A stretch of DNA of 64,000 nucleotides. Origin: Phycisphaerae bacterium. GTDB lineage: Bacteria; Planctomycetota; Phycisphaerae; UBA1845. Below are positions 9 through 56,349 of the stretch, piece by piece (position 1 is the first letter of the stretch; every line of letters begins with the position of its first letter). The stretch is from the NCBI GenBank assembly GCA_029260035.1, contig JAJDEA010000104.1, positions 1-64,000 on the forward strand, written 5' to 3'. Made by a program: the position numbers and the translations under genes. The notes beneath the pieces were generated by a model that worked only from the letters and a program-made list of their open reading frames with translations, made no database searches and was not told where the DNA came from.

Positions 9-980
9 TTGAAAATTGTGATCCCGGGTGGATCCGGTCAAGTTGGCTCAATTCTGGCACACGCATTTCGCGCTGATGGCCATGAGGTTGTCATCGTCGG
101 TCGTAACTCGCACACGTCCGATTCAACGTGGGATGGCAAGACAATTGGATCGTGGGCGAGCGAGATGGATGGAGCCGATGTTGTCATCAATCTTGCGGGG
201 CACACCGTCAATTGCCGCTACCACAAGAAAAACCGTGACCAAATAATGAACTCGCGTACGGAATCCACGAAGCTGATTGCTAAGGCAATTCGCGGTGCTC
301 GTCGTCCACCACGTGTTTGGCTGCAAGCAAGTACTGCCACGATCTACGCGGATTCTTATGACGCACCGAACGATGAATCGACTGGCGTCATTGGAGGATG
401 CGAGCCGAACGTACCCGCCAAATGGAGATTTAGCATAAGAGTCGCGACTGCATGGGAGCGTGCCCTGGACGAAGCCATCGTACCATACACACGAAAAATC
501 AAGCTTCGTTCAGCTATGACCATGAGCCCCGATCCCGGTGGCATATTCGATGTGTTGTTGGGCCTTGTCCGCCATGGCCTTGGTGGAAAATCTGGTGATG
601 GACGCCAATATGTATCGTGGGTGCATCACAAAGACTTTGTCCGAGCCATCTACTGGCTAATTGATCGCAACGAAGTCGCCGGCGTTGTCAATATCGCGGC
701 ACCTAACCCGCTGCCGAATTCTGATTTCATGCGGACTATACGGGAAGCCTGGGGAATTCGGTTGGGATTACCTGCCACAAAATGGCTGTTGGAAATCGGC
801 GCAATCTTCCTCCGAACTGAAACAGAACTAATTCTCAAGAGCCGTCGCGTCGTACCACATCTGTTAACACAAGGCGGGTTTGTTTTTCGTCATCCGACCT
901 GGCCCGAGGCTGCACGAAGCCTTTGCTGCGAATGGCGAGTCCGGCGCAACCATGCTTCAAAGCGTGTTTTTTTGGGATGA
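9..980 (+). CDS. TIGR01777-family NAD(P)-binding epimerase-like protein
   Basis: Short-chain-type Rossmann protein of the TIGR01777 (YfcH/SulA-like) family; its substrate is not established. The N-terminus MKIVIPGGSGQVGS carries the GxxGxxG dinucleotide loop and GADVVINLAG is the usual second landmark. The last ~50 residues (SRRVVPHLLTQGGFVFRHPT) match the DUF1731-type tail of this family, so the protein is full length at about 323 aa. The start is TTG at position 9. The frame is open to the window edge, so an upstream start cannot be excluded, although the glycine loop sits where a true N-terminus would put it. A DCC-family gene follows within about 10 bases, a common partnership for this family. 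Confidence 0.85.
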   Translation: MKIVIPGGSGQVGSILAHAFRADGHEVVIVGRNSHTSDSTWDGKTIGSWASEMDGADVVINLAGHTVNCRYHKKNRDQIMNSRTESTKLIAKAIRGARRPPRVWLQASTATIYADSYDAPNDESTGVIGGCEPNVPAKWRFSIRVATAWERALDEAIVPYTRKIKLRSAMTMSPDPGGIFDVLLGLVRHGLGGKSGDGRQYVSWVHHKDFVRAIYWLIDRNEVAGVVNIAAPNPLPNSDFMRTIREAWGIRLGLPATKWLLEIGAIFLRTETELILKSRRVVPHLLTQGGFVFRHPTWPEAARSLCCEWRVRRNHASKRVFLG

Positions 981-990
981 GATTTCTCTT

Positions 991-1422
991 GTGACAGAAC
1001 ACACGAAACTAACAGAATTCCAGGATCGCAAGAGCTGGCTGCTGTACGACGGCAACTGTCCCATTTGCAGAAGGCTGGCGGAACGCTTTGCGACCACCCT
1101 GCGTCGCCGTGGCTTCGATCTTGCCCCCTTGCAATCGCAGTGGGTTCACTCACGCCTTGGCTCACTGACGTGTGAGCCGCCGGACGAGATGCTCATACTT
1201 TCGTCAACAGGGAACATTCTCGGTGGAGCGGACGCCGTTGTCTTTCTTGCACGACGCATCTGGTGGGCATATCCACTCTACGCGATCGCAAGATTACCCG
1301 GTGTCATGTGGTTGCTTGGACATTTGTACCGCTGGGTGGCGAAAAACCGCGACTGTTTCGGTGGTGTTTGCGTTCGGTCGCAAGAGCAGAAAATCGGAGA
1401 TCGGAAGGAGTCGAAGCCGTGA
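991..1422 (+). CDS. DCC family (DUF393) thiol-disulfide oxidoreductase-like protein
   Basis: The DCC family is named for a motif near the N-terminus. Here LLYDGNCPICRR gives Asp followed by CPIC, a thioredoxin-like CxxC. Members are predicted thiol-disulfide oxidoreductases of unknown partner. The C-terminal half (ARRIWWAYPLYAIARLPGV...YRWVAKNR) matches the family's hydrophobic helix and YRxxAxNR signature. I chose GTG at 991, which lies just after the stop of the preceding gene at 980 and gives 143 aa, the normal size. In-frame ATGs at 952 and further upstream would overlap that gene. It probably forms an operon with its neighbours. Confidence 0.8.
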   Translation: MTEHTKLTEFQDRKSWLLYDGNCPICRRLAERFATTLRRRGFDLAPLQSQWVHSRLGSLTCEPPDEMLILSSTGNILGGADAVVFLARRIWWAYPLYAIARLPGVMWLLGHLYRWVAKNRDCFGGVCVRSQEQKIGDRKESKP

Positions 1423-1529
1423 CACATTACTTATTACCGGTTCTTACAGGGACTAGCGCCTAAAAATGCCAAAGAGTTAACGCAGAAGCAAGCAAAGTTG
1501 CTAATACTTGAATCATTGAAAGGAAGCGA

Positions 1530-2012
1530 ATGTATACAGAATGGACCTATTTAGTTTACCTTGCCGTTAGCGTGTCATTGACCATTTGGGTCGCTCGAAC
1601 ACTGTTCAAGAATGGTCGCGTGTTCCTGGTCGACGCATTCTCAGGCAACGAAACATTGGCAGACTCCGTTAATCATCTCCTGGTGGTAGGTTTCTATCTC
1701 ATTAACGTCGGCTTCGTTACGGTAGCACTCAAATATGGTGACAAGCCTGGGAACCTCGTCGGGGCAATCGAATTCGCAAGCATGAAGATCGGTCTTGTTC
1801 TCTTGGCGGTCGGGGCTATGCATTTCTTTAACCTGTACTTACTCGCGCAAGCGCGCAAACGGGGATTGGGAACGAGGCCAAGAAAGAGTGATCCGCCTCA
1901 CGATGACGAGGCATCAGTTTCCTCAACGCATGGTCCGGTGCACGGATCAGGCGATGATGCGTTCGCCCCGGCGAGAAATCCAAGGCCCTTCCAGAGGCCG
2001 TCTGATGACTAG
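1530..2012 (+). CDS. small integral membrane protein, function unknown
   Basis: A 160-aa protein with three apparent membrane segments: residues ~6-24 (YLVYLAVSVSLTIWVA), ~48-66 (LLVVGFYLINVGFVTVAL) and ~86-106 (IGLVLLAVGAMHFFNLYLLA). A polar, acidic and proline-rich cytoplasmic tail of about 50 residues follows. I do not recognise a named family. AAGGAAG lies 4 bases before the ATG. The last 8 bases overlap the ATG of the following SDR gene (ATGACTAG), so the two are likely translationally coupled. Its place after a DCC protein suggests a membrane redox or lipid role, but that is a guess. Confidence 0.7.
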   Translation: MYTEWTYLVYLAVSVSLTIWVARTLFKNGRVFLVDAFSGNETLADSVNHLLVVGFYLINVGFVTVALKYGDKPGNLVGAIEFASMKIGLVLLAVGAMHFFNLYLLAQARKRGLGTRPRKSDPPHDDEASVSSTHGPVHGSGDDAFAPARNPRPFQRPSDD

Positions 2013-2937
2013 CGAGAGTGCCGCTGTTGTAACAGGTGCCTTCGGGTATTCCGGTCGTTACATTACCCGCCGACTCCTCGACGCAGGCGTAGAAGTTCGT
2101 ACCTTAACGAACGCCCCGGCTTCGCAAAACCCGTTCGGGTCGCGAGTCAAGGCTATCCCGTTCGCGTTTGACGATCACGCTCGACTCGTCGAAGGGTTGA
2201 GGGGAGCCGCGGTCCTCTATAACACCTATTGGGTCAGGTTCAACCACCCCAAGTTCAAACAGGTGGATGCGGTAAGGAACACGCTAGCGTTGTTTCGAGC
2301 GGCCCGTGAAGCAGGCGTGCAGCGGGTCGTACATCTCAGCATCACGAACCCATCGGAGGATTCGCCGCTGGAGTATTTCCGCAGCAAGGCGACGCTCGAA
2401 AGAGCATTGATGGATTCCGGTTTGTCGTACGCGATCCTTCGACCAACAGTCTTGTTCGGCAGCGAAGATGTCCTCGTCAACAATATCGCCTGGCTGTTAC
2501 GAAGATTTCCGTTCTTCGGTGTCTTTGGCGACGGCTCCTACCGCCTTCAACCCATGTATGTGGACGACTTGGCCAAACTCGCGGTCGAGGAAGGCTTGCG
2601 AACCGAAAACCGCATCGTTGATGCCATCGGTCCGGAGACATTCACCTACCGAGAACTTGTCGCGCAGATAGGGCGGATCATCCAGCAGCCGAGGCCAACC
2701 CTGCCCGTCCCGCCTTGGGTAGGCCATCTCGTTGGCACAGCGGTTGGTAAGGTAGTCGGCGACGTCGTTATCACGCGCGAAGAGATAGCAGGGCTCATGG
2801 CCGGGCTTCTATGTACGAATTCCAAGCCGACAGGCGAAACCAGCCTGACCGAGTGGGCAACTGCCAACCGTGAGACGCTTGGTGTGCGCTACGCGAGTGA
2901 ACTCGGCAGGCGGAAAGGTCGAACAACGCGAACATAG
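2005..2937 (+). CDS. NAD(P)-binding atypical SDR (NmrA/NDUFA9-like)
   Basis: Rossmann-fold protein of the atypical SDR type that includes NmrA and the complex I NDUFA9-like proteins. VVTGAFGYSGRYITRRLL is the nucleotide loop. VVHLSITNPSEDSPLEYFRSK holds the Ser and YxxxK-like region, and LRPTVLFG follows as usual. At 310 aa from ATG 2005 the length is normal. A longer frame opens at 1795 but would lie wholly inside the preceding gene, so I reject it. The enzyme or binding role is unknown. Its overlap with the membrane-protein gene argues for joint expression. Confidence 0.75.
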   Translation: MTSESAAVVTGAFGYSGRYITRRLLDAGVEVRTLTNAPASQNPFGSRVKAIPFAFDDHARLVEGLRGAAVLYNTYWVRFNHPKFKQVDAVRNTLALFRAAREAGVQRVVHLSITNPSEDSPLEYFRSKATLERALMDSGLSYAILRPTVLFGSEDVLVNNIAWLLRRFPFFGVFGDGSYRLQPMYVDDLAKLAVEEGLRTENRIVDAIGPETFTYRELVAQIGRIIQQPRPTLPVPPWVGHLVGTAVGKVVGDVVITREEIAGLMAGLLCTNSKPTGETSLTEWATANRETLGVRYASELGRRKGRTTRT

Positions 2938-3140
2938 CCCCGCAACGCCCGCCACATAGAAGTCACGACTGCCAACTGCCAAAGAGACGCTGCCATAGTG
3001 ACCGACTCTCGTAGCCACAACAAAACACACTCTCATAACTCTTTATTTTTCAACCACTTACAGCTCATTGAGATTGTCGCCTGCGGTGGCACGCATGGTG
3101 CATTGGTGATTAGCGATCGACGTCGCATTCGATTGCGAAC

Positions 3141-3155
3141 GACCGACAGTCGGTC
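3141..3155. promoter_or_regulatory. perfect inverted repeat upstream of the Hsp20 genes
   Basis: GACCGAC-A-GTCGGTC is a 7-1-7 perfect palindrome about 45 bases before the first Hsp20 start codon. It is not CIRCE (TTAGCACTC-N9-GAGTGCTAA). It could be an operator for a heat-shock repressor or a small hairpin in the leader. The position upstream of two chaperone genes makes a regulatory role plausible. Confidence 0.4.
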
Positions 3156-3200
3156 TGAATAGATGAAGCTGGTAAACATTTATCGAAAGGAGGCCTCGAA

Positions 3201-3653
3201 ATGGTCCTAATTCAACGAATGGAAAACTTGATGCCGCTCAACAAACTGTGTGATGAGATGGACAGCTTCCTGGACGCGATTGTAAGCAAGTCGCCGTTCG
3301 ACTTGTCACTGCCTTCGGTCTGCAAACGCGCCTTCCCCGCTGTCAACGTATGGCAGGATGATAATCGCCTGATTATCGAAACCGAAGTTCCAGGCTTCGC
3401 GATGAGCGATATCGAAGTGCAGCTGATTGACAATACCTTGACAATCCAAGGCTGCCGAAGCGAATCGCAATCCGAAAACATCGACTACGTCCGTCGCGAG
3501 CGCGCCGTAGGAGGATTCAGTCGAGAACTTCGCCTTCCGGTAGAAGTAGATACCGAGAAAGTCGAGGCGTCGCTGAGCAACGGCGTATTGACGATTACAC
3601 TGCCAAAGGCTCCAAGCGTGATGCCGAAGAAAATCGAAATCAAGCGTTCATGA
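3201..3653 (+). CDS. Hsp20/alpha-crystallin small heat-shock protein (first of two)
   Basis: ATP-independent chaperone that binds unfolding proteins as large oligomers. The alpha-crystallin domain spans about residues 48-146. It opens with NVWQDDNRLIIETEVPGF, contains the VRRERAVGGFSRELRLP segment and ends with GVLTITLPK, the conserved A-x-x-x-n-GVL box, followed by a short tail with an IEI motif (KKIEIKRS) used for oligomerisation. A strong AAAGGAGG site lies 8 bases before the ATG. A second Hsp20 gene follows after about 60 bases, and a palindrome precedes the pair, so stress-induced co-expression is likely. Confidence 0.93.
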   Translation: MVLIQRMENLMPLNKLCDEMDSFLDAIVSKSPFDLSLPSVCKRAFPAVNVWQDDNRLIIETEVPGFAMSDIEVQLIDNTLTIQGCRSESQSENIDYVRRERAVGGFSRELRLPVEVDTEKVEASLSNGVLTITLPKAPSVMPKKIEIKRS

Positions 3654-50609: not shown

Positions 50610-51227
50610 TCAGCCTTTGGTATAGACCACTTCCAAGCTCTTGTATTCCTTCATTCCGTCCGGCGTCTCAAACATCTCAAACACATGTTTATTGTTATTG
50701 ATGACTTTCATGATGGACCGTGTCTTCTTGTGCATACCCGAAAAGGGGTCGTCAAGCTCGCCATGAAAGGTAAACACCTTGCCGGACGCATCGCATGTGC
50801 CACTGTCAATCATCATCATGGTCGTCATTGAATCGACCCACACACTGGTGTACTGCTGCTTGCCCTTATCATAGCCGATAATCCCCACACCCTTGAAGGG
50901 CATTCCCATGGCAGAAGAAGTGAATGTTTCCTGCAGGTAGCGTCCACCCAAAATCATCTTCTTCTCACAGGTCCCCTCGCTAACCGAAGGTTCGCTTTCC
51001 GCCTGCATCCAATGCTTCGTCACTGTTTTCCAGTTTCCGGCGAGAGGCTTGAGGTGAGCATGAAATGCGACTGGTGCGCCCACCTTCATCATGGCTTCCA
51101 TCATCGCCTTCCCATCGTCGCCTTCGCCGTGCCCTTTCTTGTTCTCGTCGCCGGACATCGCACTTCCGGCAAACAGCCCTACGATACCAACGCAAAGCAA
51201 ACAACCAAAAACTCGATTCCTGTTCAT
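50610..51227 (-). CDS. DUF1579 family secreted protein
   Basis: A 205-aa exported protein of the DUF1579 family, which has no assigned role. The signal is FGCLLCVGIVGLFAGSAMS. PLAGNWKTVTKHW, LGGRYLQETF, GMPFKGVGIIGYDKGKQQYTSVWVDSM and MHKKTRSIMKVI follow the family pattern of a lipocalin-like beta barrel. Between the signal and the domain is a charged, Met-rich stretch. CAGGAGATACAGG sits before the ATG. A strong terminator ends the gene, so it is monocistronic. Confidence 0.8.
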   Translation of the reverse strand: MNRNRVFGCLLCVGIVGLFAGSAMSGDENKKGHGEGDDGKAMMEAMMKVGAPVAFHAHLKPLAGNWKTVTKHWMQAESEPSVSEGTCEKKMILGGRYLQETFTSSAMGMPFKGVGIIGYDKGKQQYTSVWVDSMTTMMMIDSGTCDASGKVFTFHGELDDPFSGMHKKTRSIMKVINNNKHVFEMFETPDGMKEYKSLEVVYTKG

Positions 51228-51576: not shown

Positions 51577-53613
51577 CTACATTGGATCAAATAAACGCTG
51601 AAACTGCTGGGCGTCGATCAGGTCCACATCTCCATCCACGTCAAAATCGAAAACACCGCAAGACGCGGGATTGAACAAGACCGAAGGGCCACTCCAGCAA
51701 GTCGACACTTCCTGGTAGTCAGTGAGATCAATGCGACCATCCAGGTTGTAATCTCCTTGAGGTGCGGCACACGAAATCGCAAGAACTTGAAATTCGTCGA
51801 TAGCGGCCTCGGTAAGCGAGTCGGAGGGCGGGCCATCGCTTGTCGTAAACCGCACCCGGATTTGGTTTCCCACGACTTGCGGAAAATCGCTTAAGCGAAA
51901 ACGATGTCGCTCCCAGCCAGTGGTGCTGGTCACGGTTTCAACAACCGTCCAACTGCTACCGCCATCGCCGGACAACTCAACGATCAGTACATCTACAATC
52001 CCCGACTGCGTGAAAAACCAAACCGCGTAGCTGATTTCGGCATCGCTCGATGACACGGGAACAACCGGCGACACAAGCTGCACAGGTCCGCCATCAACAT
52101 CGGTCAACCCGATCGATCCGCCAAGATGCTGTCCCGTAACAAAACAGTTGGTCTTCGCATCGGGAGAGAAATCAAAATCCGGCTGGACGGGCGTAGCCAC
52201 ATTGAGAGACGTCCCCGCAGGCGAAACGCGCTCCCATAATCCAACGGCACCTCCACCACTACTCGTCGTCCAACCTCGATCAATCTCGAAGTCGTCGTCG
52301 AAAACAACTGACTCATTAACTGCGCGTACACTGTGCCATTGACTGGGCGCTGCAATCGGCTCAGTAACCAGTGCCCCGCCTAACGTATCCACGCTGAAGT
52401 AATATTCAATCGTCGATTCGCAGGAAACAGCAGGCATCGCAGCCGAATAAACATCGCCGCCAACCGAAGAGAGCGAAACAGAAGAAAAAGGTGACACACC
52501 GATTCGCCACCATAGCGTAGCCGTCCCCGGCATAGCGACATCCGCAACTTCTGCGATTCGGATCAAGAACGACGATGACTGACTCGGCGGAATCGTCGCG
52601 GGGTATAGATCGATGACTTCAAAACGGACGGGCGGTGCTGGCGCTGCAGTCAATAAGGCCGAAGCGTTTAGTCGGCCGTTTCCGTACAAACTATCAGGCC
52701 CGGCAGGCCCCAAATCCAAAGCCGACGCGTTCAAGAGTTGTCGAATCTCTACAGCGGAAAGGCTAGGCGAATATGACCGCAATAGCGCAGCAGCGCCTGC
52801 AACGTAGGCGGGAGGCGCCCACCACGCATCGCTTAATGTCGAGAAATTGTCACTTATCGACGTAGAAAGGATCGCCTTACCCGGCGCCGAAAGCTCAACT
52901 TCCACACCGGAATTAGAAAATGCCGTTACGCTATCCTGGCTGTCCGTTGCCGAAACCGCTATACAATCCGAATAAGCAGCCGGGTACGAGACTTCTGGAA
53001 TACCCAAATCCCCTGATGGCGCGATCACCAGGACATCGTTTGAAGCCGCATAAGCAACCGCAGCCGATAGCTCTGGCGATCCGTTTTCAAACTTGGCTGC
53101 GACAACAATGACATGAACATTTTGATCGACAGCCCATTCGATACCGCTGGCTACACTGGCCGTATTTCCAAGACAACCATCGAAAACGCGAACCGGAAGA
53201 AGCGTGACATGGTCTAACGCGCCAGCGATTCCAACTCCATTGTCGATAGCGGCGCCGATCAAACCAGCCACATGTGTCCCGACCGAACAGCCGTCTCTGG
53301 TATCGAACAAATCACCAACAAACGCACGCCCCTCCAGCAGTCGGCCTGCGTATTCAGAATGAGGTTCCACGCCAGAGCCAACAACAGCAACCACGATCGG
53401 GCGCGCACCGCGGTAGGTTTCCCAGGCACTTGCAATTCCGGTGTCCGCGCCCGGCGTACTCGCGAGGCCTTCGACCACCTGCCCCGTGTTCTGAAGCGCC
53501 CATTGCTGCGCAAAACTTGGGTCATTGGGATCGGCAGCAATTACAACTGATGACAAAACGGCAACAGTCACAATTCTGATAATCAATCCAGAAAAGTGCA
53601 ACGAACGTGGCAC
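51577..53613 (-). CDS. subtilisin-fold protein lacking the catalytic triad, secreted, dockerin-like tail
   Basis: A 678-aa protein with a signal (IIRIVTVAVLSSVVIAA) and an S8-type fold at ~30-310: AQQWALQNTGQ, VAVVGSGVEPH, VGTHVAGLIGA, VLVIAPSGDLG and APPAYVAGAAALL. All catalytic positions differ: Gly79 for Asp, Val111 for His, Trp265 for Ser and Asp202 for the oxyanion Asn. Two beta-rich domains follow (~325-430 and ~440-600, with FSDGG-type strands), then a dockerin-like pair (GDYNLDGRIDLTDYQ and FDFDVDGDVDLIDAQ). GTG 53613 is 7 bases after GGAGG. It is likely a binding or scaffold protein, not a protease. Confidence 0.82.
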   Translation of the reverse strand: MPRSLHFSGLIIRIVTVAVLSSVVIAADPNDPSFAQQWALQNTGQVVEGLASTPGADTGIASAWETYRGARPIVVAVVGSGVEPHSEYAGRLLEGRAFVGDLFDTRDGCSVGTHVAGLIGAAIDNGVGIAGALDHVTLLPVRVFDGCLGNTASVASGIEWAVDQNVHVIVVAAKFENGSPELSAAVAYAASNDVLVIAPSGDLGIPEVSYPAAYSDCIAVSATDSQDSVTAFSNSGVEVELSAPGKAILSTSISDNFSTLSDAWWAPPAYVAGAAALLRSYSPSLSAVEIRQLLNASALDLGPAGPDSLYGNGRLNASALLTAAPAPPVRFEVIDLYPATIPPSQSSSFLIRIAEVADVAMPGTATLWWRIGVSPFSSVSLSSVGGDVYSAAMPAVSCESTIEYYFSVDTLGGALVTEPIAAPSQWHSVRAVNESVVFDDDFEIDRGWTTSSGGGAVGLWERVSPAGTSLNVATPVQPDFDFSPDAKTNCFVTGQHLGGSIGLTDVDGGPVQLVSPVVPVSSSDAEISYAVWFFTQSGIVDVLIVELSGDGGSSWTVVETVTSTTGWERHRFRLSDFPQVVGNQIRVRFTTSDGPPSDSLTEAAIDEFQVLAISCAAPQGDYNLDGRIDLTDYQEVSTCWSGPSVLFNPASCGVFDFDVDGDVDLIDAQQFQRLFDPM

Positions 53614-53972
53614 TTCAATACCTCCGCAAGCTACCAACCAAAACGGAATACCAGGAGTACATCCGAAATCCGCTCCGCGACACCTTAAACGAATTCGGGC
53701 TGATCAACCCCTGCCAACTTAGCGTCTCAGACGCTAGCGGCAAGTGTACCAAGCCGACCTCATTGACTTCGCACAAACCGTTCAACCGTAAACCATTGCC
53801 AGTGAAGCAGTTACGGCATATGGGCGGAGCCAAACGGCTGAACGAATCGTCAAGGAACGCTCGAAAAAGAACTAAGAAGACCTATAGCCTGGAACGGCTA
53901 AAAGACAGGGCAAATCGCGGATATCCACGGAATGGACCGAGCACTCAGACGCAATTTTGAAGAAAGCAGGCT
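53614..53972. other. gene-free stretch
   Basis: About 360 bases. A plus-strand frame (53607-53960) is Arg/Lys/Pro-rich, overlaps the start of the pseudo-subtilase gene and lacks family likeness, so I do not call it. Nothing else is evident. Confidence 0.4.
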
Positions 53973-54554
53973 CTAATTCAGGGATTCTTCGGCCCACTCC
54001 GGAGCTCGACCTGGTACTAACGAAACCGCAGTAAGATTGATGGCAGCGCCAGCCTCGACGCCATAAGCATGGTAGGTAGATTCAGCGAATCGAACCGGGA
54101 GCAATTCATCCATTAGACCTACGGATCGACTGATCGCTGTAACCAGCGCACGAACCCCGAGCCATTGATCTACTGGGATCACGCCACCAGCTCCATCAGG
54201 AATCACCCGAATTCGAATCGTCTCCGACTTGTTGCCCACTAAGTCCTGACGTTCCCAATCCTTGCTTCGCGCAAGAGCGCAGGCCAAGTCAACCTGAAAA
54301 TGCCAATCATGGTTATCCGGCAGAGCCGCAAGCATCGCTCCGGCAGATGTGGGGGGGGATTCGACGAAGAGTTCAATGTTCAGCCATCGCGATTCGTCAA
54401 CTTGCACACCGCGAGAGACGATTCTCTCCGCATCTTCCAGGATATCCGCAAACGCGAGGGGCGAGGAAGAAACGTAGGTCGATGGACAGATCCACCCGAG
54501 AAACACACTGGTCCCCGTCATGGCCATAGCCAGGCAAACTAACGACTTAATCAT
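53973..54554 (-). CDS. secreted protein, function unknown
   Basis: A 193-aa protein with a signal-like start (IKSLVCLAMAMTGTSVFLGWI) and no family that I recognise. The mature part shows SRWLNIELFVESPP, NHDWHFQVDLACALARS, ETIRIRVIPDGAGGV and VEAGAAINLTAV. It is rather uniform in composition. ATG 54554 was chosen because the signal peptide begins there; the frame extends upstream to 54650 without signal character. It precedes the pseudo-subtilase on the same strand but 359 bases away, so co-transcription is uncertain. Confidence 0.6.
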   Translation of the reverse strand: MIKSLVCLAMAMTGTSVFLGWICPSTYVSSSPLAFADILEDAERIVSRGVQVDESRWLNIELFVESPPTSAGAMLAALPDNHDWHFQVDLACALARSKDWERQDLVGNKSETIRIRVIPDGAGGVIPVDQWLGVRALVTAISRSVGLMDELLPVRFAESTYHAYGVEAGAAINLTAVSLVPGRAPEWAEESLN

Positions 54555-54794
54555 GCGATTTCGGTTGTCCACGTGATCGCCTTGAAAAAGCGAATAGTAA
54601 CTGGGAAAAAGGCAAGACGAACCGCGCCAGCGTCTCGCCACTTTCTTCATCGGCTCAGTTTACGAAAATTCTTTCGAGATTCTCATAACGCAAACCGACT
54701 ACCTTCCTGTGACGACTCGGTGCCAAGACATCGACCCCGTCGCTGGCCAGTGCAATCTTAATTCGTCAGAAATGGCCTAACTGCTTCTCCCCTG

Positions 54795-54844: not shown

Positions 54845-55651
54845 CTACTTGCCGCAATAATCGATCAACCGGGCAACTTCGCGCCGTAGGTCCGCCCGAT
54901 GAACGATTCGATCAACAAAGCCATGCTCCAGCATGAATTCTGCTGTCTGAAATCCTTCAGGCAACTCCGCATTGATCGTGTTGGCAATGACTCTTGGCCC
55001 TGCAAATCCCATCATCGCTTTTGGCTCCGCCATGATGACATCACCCAGGCTCGCGAAGCTAGCCGCCACACCGGCTGTGGTCGGGTCGGTCGCAACCACA
55101 ATATACAGCCCCCCGGCGTCATCTAACTTCGCAAGCGCTGCTGACGTCTTCGCCATTTGCATGAGAGACACCATCCCCTCTTGCATGCGAGCACCGCCCG
55201 ACGCCGTCACCACAACAAACGGTAGATTATCCTCGACCGCCCGCTCGATGGCCCTGGTTATCTTTTCGCCCACAACAGCACCCATCGATGCCATGATGAA
55301 GTGAGGGTTCATTACTGCCAGTACAATGGGGCGTCCACGAACGAACGCATGGCCGACGAGAACCGCCTCCAATTCGCCAGTCTTATCCTCTTCGCGGTTG
55401 AGCCTTTCTTTATACGGAAGCCGATCCTTAAACCCCAATGGATCCGTCGACCGCAAGTCCTTCGCAAATTCCTCGAATGTATCGGGGTCGACAAACTGCT
55501 TGACGCGCTTCCTCGCGCTGACTCGCCGATGGTGGTCGCATTCGGGACACACGAAAAGCGCCTCCTCGACCTCCTTCTCGTAAACCGTATGTCCACAGCT
55601 GTCGCAACGGCTCCAAAGCCCAGCGGGAATATCTACGCGATCATCTACCAT
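54845..55651 (-). CDS. accD: acetyl-CoA carboxylase carboxyltransferase subunit beta
   Basis: Transfers carboxyl from biotin to acetyl-CoA in fatty acid synthesis, together with AccA. The zinc ribbon CDSCG...CPECD is at the N-terminus. [36 protein letters not shown] is the carboxyltransferase signature, and [20 protein letters not shown] the second. ATG 55651 has GGAGTG 7 bases upstream; a TTG at 55669 has no support. 268 aa is normal. It is the last gene of a glycolytic operon, an unusual but understandable link between carbon flow and lipid synthesis. Confidence 0.95.
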
Positions 55652-55665
55652 ACAGTCACTCCGAC

Positions 55666-56349
55666 TCAAGGCTTTGACGGTGAAGTCATCTCACCATGCC
55701 TCCGGCCAATCGAACTCTGACCATCAGTCAACTCCCGGTCGCTCGGCCTGCGACCGGGTACTCCATCCAAAACGTCATACTTCAATGGTTCAGTATACAC
55801 CATCGAAAGCAATCGGGGCATGGGGACATCTTCAATTTGACATCGCAAAACGGCAAACGCCGTTGGGCCAACAACAATCGCAATATTCCTTCGACGCTTT
55901 CGATGAGCAACCCGGTCGAGCGTCGCGTGCAAGCGATCTGAAGCGCTAACGATTTCCTCCCCCTCCGGCGGACAAACCGCTGTGGGATCATCACACCAAC
56001 GCTTATAAATCTTCGGATAACGGCGGGCTAATTCCTCATGCGTCAAACCGTCCCACAGACCCGCATCGACTTCTGCAAGATCATCATCTTGCTTGCGTAC
56101 TGCGTCCAGCTTGTAAGCAAGAATGGCGGCTGTTTCTATAGACGCTTTTTCCGAACTGGAATAAATCTTCCGTAGACCCAGCGACGAAAGTGGCTGTGCC
56201 CAGGACGCAGCCATTTCCTTACCCCGTGAAGTTAAAGAGACGGGCGACCGGCCGATCATTCTGCCAGCTATCGTCCAATCCGTTTCCGGCCAAGGTATGA
56301 GCACCACTACTGACAAAGCCAATCGATCCAAATGAAACGAACCCGACAT
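55666..56349 (-). CDS. histidine phosphatase-fold protein without catalytic residues
   Basis: A 227-aa protein of the phosphoglycerate-mutase-like fold. The usual RHGE at the end of strand 1 is PWPE (residues 19-22 in [12 protein letters not shown]). The second His position is Gly161 ([10 protein letters not shown]). The phosphate-pocket Arg is Lys68 (IYSSSEKAS). The fold landmarks SLTSRG, TAAILA and [15 protein letters not shown] remain. It cannot work by the standard phospho-histidine mechanism. It lies between rpe and accD, 28 and 14 bases from each, and is co-transcribed with them. A binding or regulatory role is my inference. Confidence 0.75.

Follow-up and report, generated by a model that had tools for sequence, protein, structure and literature searches.

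A subtilisin-like protein without catalytic residues in a Phycisphaerae bacterium, very probably maintained as a pseudoprotease

What is a secreted subtilisin-like protein kept for once the residues of its active site have been replaced? This question is raised by a gene of the window, i.e., the whole stretch of 64,000 nucleotides from a Phycisphaerae bacterium analysed here (contig JAJDEA010000104.1), in which a sequence-only reading had recognized an S8-type protein preceded by a strong ribosome site. Both observations were borne out, as positions 51577-53613 fit an open frame of 678 aa on the minus strand, with a GTG start at 53613 and a stop at 51577, and a GGAGG motif lies 7 nt before the GTG. 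A second possible start, a TTG, is found upstream of the GTG, while a promoter scan returned no promoter. The gene and the parts of the encoded protein are as follows:

51577..53613, minus strand: whole coding sequence, GTG start, 678 aa, its open frame kept in orthologs
53621..53625, minus strand: ribosome site GGAGG, 7 nt ahead of the GTG start (from sequence)
53533..53613, minus strand: signal peptide, residues 1-27 (from sequence)
52630..53532, minus strand: S8 (subtilisin-like) domain without catalytic residues, residues 28-328 (PF00082, 2.9e-31; TM 0.89-0.92 against subtilisins)
52318..52629, minus strand: Ig-like beta domain, residues 329-432 (model mb25f47781ab8, pLDDT ~90; Foldseek match to the PPAD enzyme, 105 columns)
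51766..52317, minus strand: jelly-roll beta-sandwich of MAM / CBM4-22 / choice-of-anchor J type, residues 433-616 (structure model, Foldseek, NCBIfam)
51580..51765, minus strand: dockerin-like EF-hand pair, residues 617-678 (PF00404, 22.6 bits on the protein, 27.4 bits in the genome scan)

By descent, the window protein belongs to the S8 peptidases, as indicated by its match to Peptidase_S8 (PF00082 in Pfam, 2.9e-31) together with its subtilisin fold. The same profile is matched by all 12 members of a set (A1) drawn from its clade of orthologs, which is referred to below as the dead clade. Savinase is the best match among solved structures (2.2e-35), and the phmmer alignment to this enzyme confirms the residue numbers previously assigned to the replaced positions, which are also supported by the alignment of the clade:

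53377..53379, minus strand: Gly79 in place of the catalytic Asp32
53281..53283, minus strand: Val111 in place of the catalytic His64
53008..53010, minus strand: Asp202 in place of the oxyanion Asn155
52819..52821, minus strand: Trp265 in place of the catalytic Ser221

The window protein thus lacks the Asp-His-Ser triad and the oxyanion Asn of an active peptidase. These had been described together as four catalytic positions, and all four are indeed replaced, although three of them form the triad and the fourth is the oxyanion Asn. Besides these four residues, the GTSMAxP motif is lost in its entirety, as are Ser125 (S1 site) and the prodomain. The fold segments, in turn, had been considered well kept, and the structure model agrees: in the AlphaFold2 model of the protein (mean pLDDT 72), the S8 core mostly reaches 80-95, and Foldseek aligns the model to subtilisins and thermitase with TM scores of 0.89-0.92, so the S8 fold is predicted to be complete. 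The best NCBIfam match, the T7SS mycosin TIGR03921, scores 148.5 bits against a cut-off of 278.75 and no type VII context was seen, and membership in this family was rejected; the likeness to mycosins is confined to the S8 domain.

The genome containing the window (G000) comprises 4.9 Mb in 271 contigs and is 94.6% complete, while the genomes of its relatives are mostly fragmented drafts. A search of these relatives for homologues, as the sequence-only reading had proposed, yielded full-length orthologs at 44-52% identity and, counting partial ones, orthologs in 20 of 51 genomes and 13 of 32 genera of one bacterial family. No ortholog of comparable score was found outside the family in a search of the order (114 genomes). 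In a tree of the S8 domain built without the catalytic columns, the 18 usable dead sequences are split off by a branch supported at 100/100, on a stem of 1.01 changes per column that joins the active paralogs at an open fork. Orthology is further supported by the shared gene neighbourhood, since the same neighbours on the glycolysis/accD side adjoin the gene in five genomes. The neighbours retained in this comparison are:

50610..51227, minus strand: DUF1579 protein, downstream neighbour, adjacency kept in five genomes
53973..54650, minus strand: exported-looking protein with no Pfam match, upstream neighbour, adjacency kept in four genomes (G000, G031, G030, G009)
54845..55669, minus strand: accD-like carboxyltransferase, at which the conserved upstream neighbourhood begins

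Eight S8 matches are present in the window genome, including the gene described here. The other seven proteins read as intact, five by motif pattern and two (L006, L008) by alignment. In the ortholog of G061 (L107, G061:C298:1-6000), an in-frame TGA follows the S8 domain within the Ig-like part, which may be a genuine truncation or an error in this genome, which is 76% complete. Internal TGA codons with a second fragment downstream are also listed for several S8 matches of G060, the places concerned lying in G060:C1 (several) and G031:C3.

Across the dead clade, the old active site has become strikingly variable. The Asp32 column holds Gly, Ser, or Ala, with Asp in two members (G012, G069), while the His64 column holds Val, Thr, Gln, Ser, Gly, Lys, Ile, or Asn, with His in seven. 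Asp, His, Ser, Pro, Ala, or Arg occupy the Asn155 column, where Asn persists in five members, and the Ser221 column is mostly Ala, with Trp in G000 and G015 only, Leu in one member, and Gln in two. Ser is found at this last column in three members (G011, G009, G067), all of them without Asp and His; conversely, the G012 ortholog keeps Asp and His but has Ala at Ser221. Hence, the alignment of the clade shows a full triad in no member. A restoration of the catalytic residues by realignment was also considered and rejected: the motifs around the Asp and His sites are gapless, and although the length of the Ser221 loop varies, the Ser-bearing members lack Asp and His. The G069 ortholog, L112 (G069:C160, frame + from 4636), also keeps Asp and His, although close to the end of the contig its frame no longer follows that of the family, so that the Ser region is unreadable.

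A lineage with conserved Gly, Val, and Trp had been predicted, and this expectation failed. The replacements vary both between and within genera (in genus g10, Lys, Ile, and Thr take the place of His in three genomes), and Trp265 is common to G015 only. Similarly, the 'simultaneous loss' proposed from the single sequence is real as a loss, but since the replacements vary across the clade, it is better read as a single ancestral event that freed the protein from catalysis, after which the old site drifted. The state shared by the clade, judging from these alignments, appears to be the loss of a site and not the gain of a new one.

This drift is set in an otherwise well-preserved domain. Among 27 active relatives, 57 columns are conserved at 90% or more, and 37 of these reach the same level in the dead clade. 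Nine of the 57 are kept in under half of the dead clade, namely Asp32, His64, Ser125, Asn155, Gly219, Thr220, Ser221, Pro225, and a Trp at 134, where Ser125, Gly219, Thr220, and Pro225 carry the subtilisin numbers that we take to be theirs from known subtilisin motifs. The losses thus appear concentrated on function, i.e., on the catalytic site and the cleft, plus one Trp. Newly fixed or nearly so in the dead clade are Ala269 (for Pro225), Pro199, located in the strand preceding the former oxyanion residue, and Asp101. Moreover, two Cys residues covary in the clade:

53287..53289, minus strand: Cys109, probable disulfide partner of Cys147 (covariation in the dead clade)
53173..53175, minus strand: Cys147, probable disulfide partner of Cys109 (covariation in the dead clade)

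Both residues are present in 12 of the 18 members and neither in six, with no mixed case, a pattern that probably reflects a disulfide in a folded, exported protein. Outside the dead clade, loss of the active site was seen elsewhere among S8 proteins. In L089 (G012:C30:2800-7000, frame + from 925), all four positions are lost (Asp to Asn, His to Phe, Asn to Gln, and Ser to Gly, in GTGMASAH); the main pseudoprotease is encoded in this genome as well. L140 (G067:C7, frame - from 862) retains an intact GTSFASPH, with Gly at the place of the catalytic Asp and HET for HGT, and is perhaps a partly decayed third case.

The selection acting on the dead S8 domain alone was compared with that on whole active S8 paralogs in the same genome pairs. 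The NG86 dN/dS ratios for the dead domain and the active paralogs were 0.224 and 0.205 (G031/G060), 0.142 and 0.149 (G009/G068), and 0.127 and 0.131 (G009/G067), respectively, the ratios of g10 pairs being approximate since dS exceeds 1 in them. Purifying selection on the dead domain (0.13-0.22), as estimated from these sequences, appears equal to that on the active paralogs. The catalytic residues have thus been lost, while open frame, fold, and purifying selection persist across species. The occurrence of orthologs in 13 genera, their grouping in one clade, dN/dS values like those of active paralogs, and the kept fold jointly argue that the window protein is, with high confidence, a maintained pseudoprotease and not a pseudogene. 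The same evidence supports the earlier proposal of a retained non-proteolytic role. The possibility that this copy is a lone sequencing variant, which had been named as the case that would overturn that proposal, is ruled out by the orthologs and the dN/dS values.

The loss is not restricted to the active site. In subtilisins, the prodomain acts as a chaperone for folding and is then removed by self-cleavage. The window protein has no such segment of I9 type, as its signal peptide directly abuts the mature-type start 'PNDPSFAQQW', and it departs in this from extracellular peptidases with a prodomain between signal peptide and mature enzyme. All orthologs with a readable start show the same arrangement, with a signal peptide followed directly by the mature-type start and no I9-type prodomain (the start is uncertain in G015 and G070, whose open frames reach farther upstream). 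The active S8 paralogs (e.g., L001, L024, L091) resemble the dead clade in the mature start 'PNDxxF..QW', in the fold and, in many cases, in the Cys pair, and L023 to L025 also have the C-terminal module. However, they differ in their intact triad, in their separate place in the tree, and in about 150 aa of prodomain region before the mature-type start. This difference indicates that the prodomain is gone from the dead clade, as far as sequence can tell.

The closest known analogues are CspC and CspA of Clostridioides difficile, bacterial proteins in which the subtilisin fold is likewise kept and the catalytic residues are lost, and whose relatives include active paralogs. In CspC, however, Asp105 and an uncleaved prodomain are retained and a jelly roll interrupts the S8 domain (PMC6636752), whereas in the dead clade the prodomain is missing, most members have lost Asp, His, Asn155, Ser, and the Ser motif, and the protein is probably exported. 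Its jelly roll is C-terminal instead of inserted, and it is accompanied by C-terminal Ig-like and dockerin-like parts. By its lack of a prodomain and the position of its jelly roll, the window protein thus falls outside the Csp architecture (prodomain, inserted jelly roll, spore germination).

For the C-terminal half, a separate model (pLDDT 81) was built, in which a jelly roll and an Ig-like domain are recognized from its Foldseek matches: the MAM domains of meprin, the CBM4 and CBM22 domains, and a 105-column match to the PPAD enzyme. NCBIfam adds a sub-threshold match of the window protein to choice-of-anchor J. In this bacterial family, the same Ig-like/jelly-roll module also occurs on proteins that, from their sequence motifs, resemble M36 and M14 peptidases and others. 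The dockerin-like EF-hand end noticed in the sequence-only reading was recovered as a borderline match: Dockerin_1 (PF00404) scores 22.6 bits on the protein, just under the cut-off of 22.9, and 27.4 bits, over the cut-off, in the genome scan, and it is matched by five of 12 dead-clade members at E 0.01. Mean column identity amounts to 0.65 in the S8 domain, 0.64 in the jelly roll, and 0.53 in the dockerin-like segment.

Partners for such a tail may be present in the same genomes. Cohesin matches occur in 33 of the 51 genomes, namely in 19 of the 20 with the dead subtilisin and 14 of the 31 without it (Fisher p = 2.4e-4, kinship not controlled). Their scores are low, at 20-47 bits in the genome scan and 55 bits for a single whole protein. 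The one bearing genome with no cohesin match, G023, is 67% complete. In the window genome, one protein has cohesin, HYR, and dockerin domains, and another has two cohesins. The former, L155 (G000:C33:32500-36500, 872-3496 +), which by eye also has a von Willebrand A-like domain, resembles the adaptor proposed for the 'planctosome', a hypothetical cohesin-dockerin complex for polypeptide degradation suggested for freshwater Phycisphaerae, in which an adaptor with dockerin, HYR, and cohesin is placed at the outer membrane (PMC6461901). The window protein parallels this proposal in that it is secreted with a dockerin-like tail and that its planctomycete-type genome encodes an adaptor-like protein of cohesin-HYR-dockerin type. 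The planctosome, however, holds active M12B and M14 peptidases, and a dead peptidase is not described in the available part of that source (PMC6461901).

The cohesins, the cohesin-HYR-dockerin protein, and the planctosome proposal are the basis of the docking part of the following explanation. The ancestor would have been a secreted subtilisin that already had the Ig-like/jelly-roll module as an accessory and ended in a dockerin-like tail; its prodomain and its catalytic function were lost a single time, where the clade arose within one planctomycete-type family. Since then, as the sequence comparison shows, the old active site has drifted while fold and tail stayed under purifying selection. 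The protein would be exported and fold without autoprocessing. Its EF-hand pair may bind, with calcium, a cohesin on a surface or extracellular scaffold, where the dead S8 domain and the jelly roll could serve as a non-catalytic binding or structural subunit beside active dockerin-tagged peptidases in a planctosome-like assembly. Catalytic-residue loss, single origin, selection, likely export, the dockerin-like tail, and the cohesins of the genome can be read from the sequences, and from there we infer the docking, the location, and the binding target of the dead domain. As a whole, including cohesin docking, this explanation of a single-origin secreted pseudoprotease is tentative, although quite possible. 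The binding-scaffold idea of the earlier reading is thus plausible and gains weight from the cohesins in the same genomes, while it remains inferential. Its most specific form, a fixed dockerin-borne subunit of a cohesin-based extracellular peptidase complex that captures or presents polypeptide for docked peptidases, is judged unlikely as it stands.

A role as a regulatory pseudoprotease of the CspC/CspA kind, which would pair with an active subtilisin paralog or sense a ligand and thereby control paralog activity, has its precedent in C. difficile (PMC6636752), and candidate partners abound, with 7 to 31 S8 matches in every genome examined. Nevertheless, this role seems rather doubtful, as no S8 gene adjoins the dead gene in the loci examined, CspC keeps its prodomain and Asp while the dead clade lacks the former and retains the latter in only two members, and genus g10 and G023 have the dead protein without the close paralog type of other genomes. 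A close dependence on an active paralog is thus not universal. The protein might instead be a surface adhesin whose jelly roll does the work of binding carbohydrates or proteins, the dead subtilisin acting only as a spacer or a platform for folding. The resemblance of the jelly roll to MAM and CBM4/22 domains and its conservation, on a par with that of the S8 domain (0.64 vs. 0.65), speak for such a function. However, the S8 domain is under selection no weaker than that on active enzymes, and the module also occurs on apparently active M36 and M14 peptidases and is thus not specific to adhesins, so this possibility is not a likely one either.

As inhibitors of subtilisins attach to the active-site cleft and its surroundings, the kept subtilisin shape (TM 0.89-0.92) could also act as a decoy or shield that binds environmental protease inhibitors or substrates and protects active peptidases. 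Inhibitor binding would need a conserved cleft, however, and the cleft is precisely what drifts (S1-site Ser125, Asn155, and the Ser221 loop, with insertions there), which makes this role improbable. It is more improbable still that the protein acts as an enzyme through another catalytic set, located in the cleft or close to it. Asp101 and Pro199, newly fixed or nearly so in the clade, might hint at one, but among Ser, Cys, and Thr residues there is no new fixation shared by every member (one has lost Cys217), the few that are fixed are also common in active relatives, and cleft residues vary even within one genus; it is conservation, and not the geometry of the model, that makes such a set unlikely. 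Finally, decay of a subtilisin on its way out, suggested by the in-frame TGA of the G061 copy and by the unconstrained old active-site residues, is close to refuted for the window copy and scarcely credible overall, given that other full-length orthologs keep open frames across the 13 genera, that dN/dS (0.13-0.22) equals that of active paralogs, and that structural positions are kept.

The dead subtilisin is, in summary, probably a binding or docking part and not an enzyme. A biological role has been demonstrated for few pseudo-subtilisins of bacteria, and a literature search yielded mainly CspC and CspA. In the family described here, a whole clade has lost both prodomain and active site, and the drift of the former site is visible while the fold is kept. 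The clade thus offers a natural series, from Asp and His in one member to nothing left in others, for asking what the subtilisin fold does without catalysis. If docking holds, the protein would provide a handle on the planctosome idea, and the dead subunit would show that such assemblies contain non-enzymatic parts. If the capturing or presenting role were true, this subunit would be the protein-degrading counterpart of the carbohydrate-binding subunits of cellulosomes.
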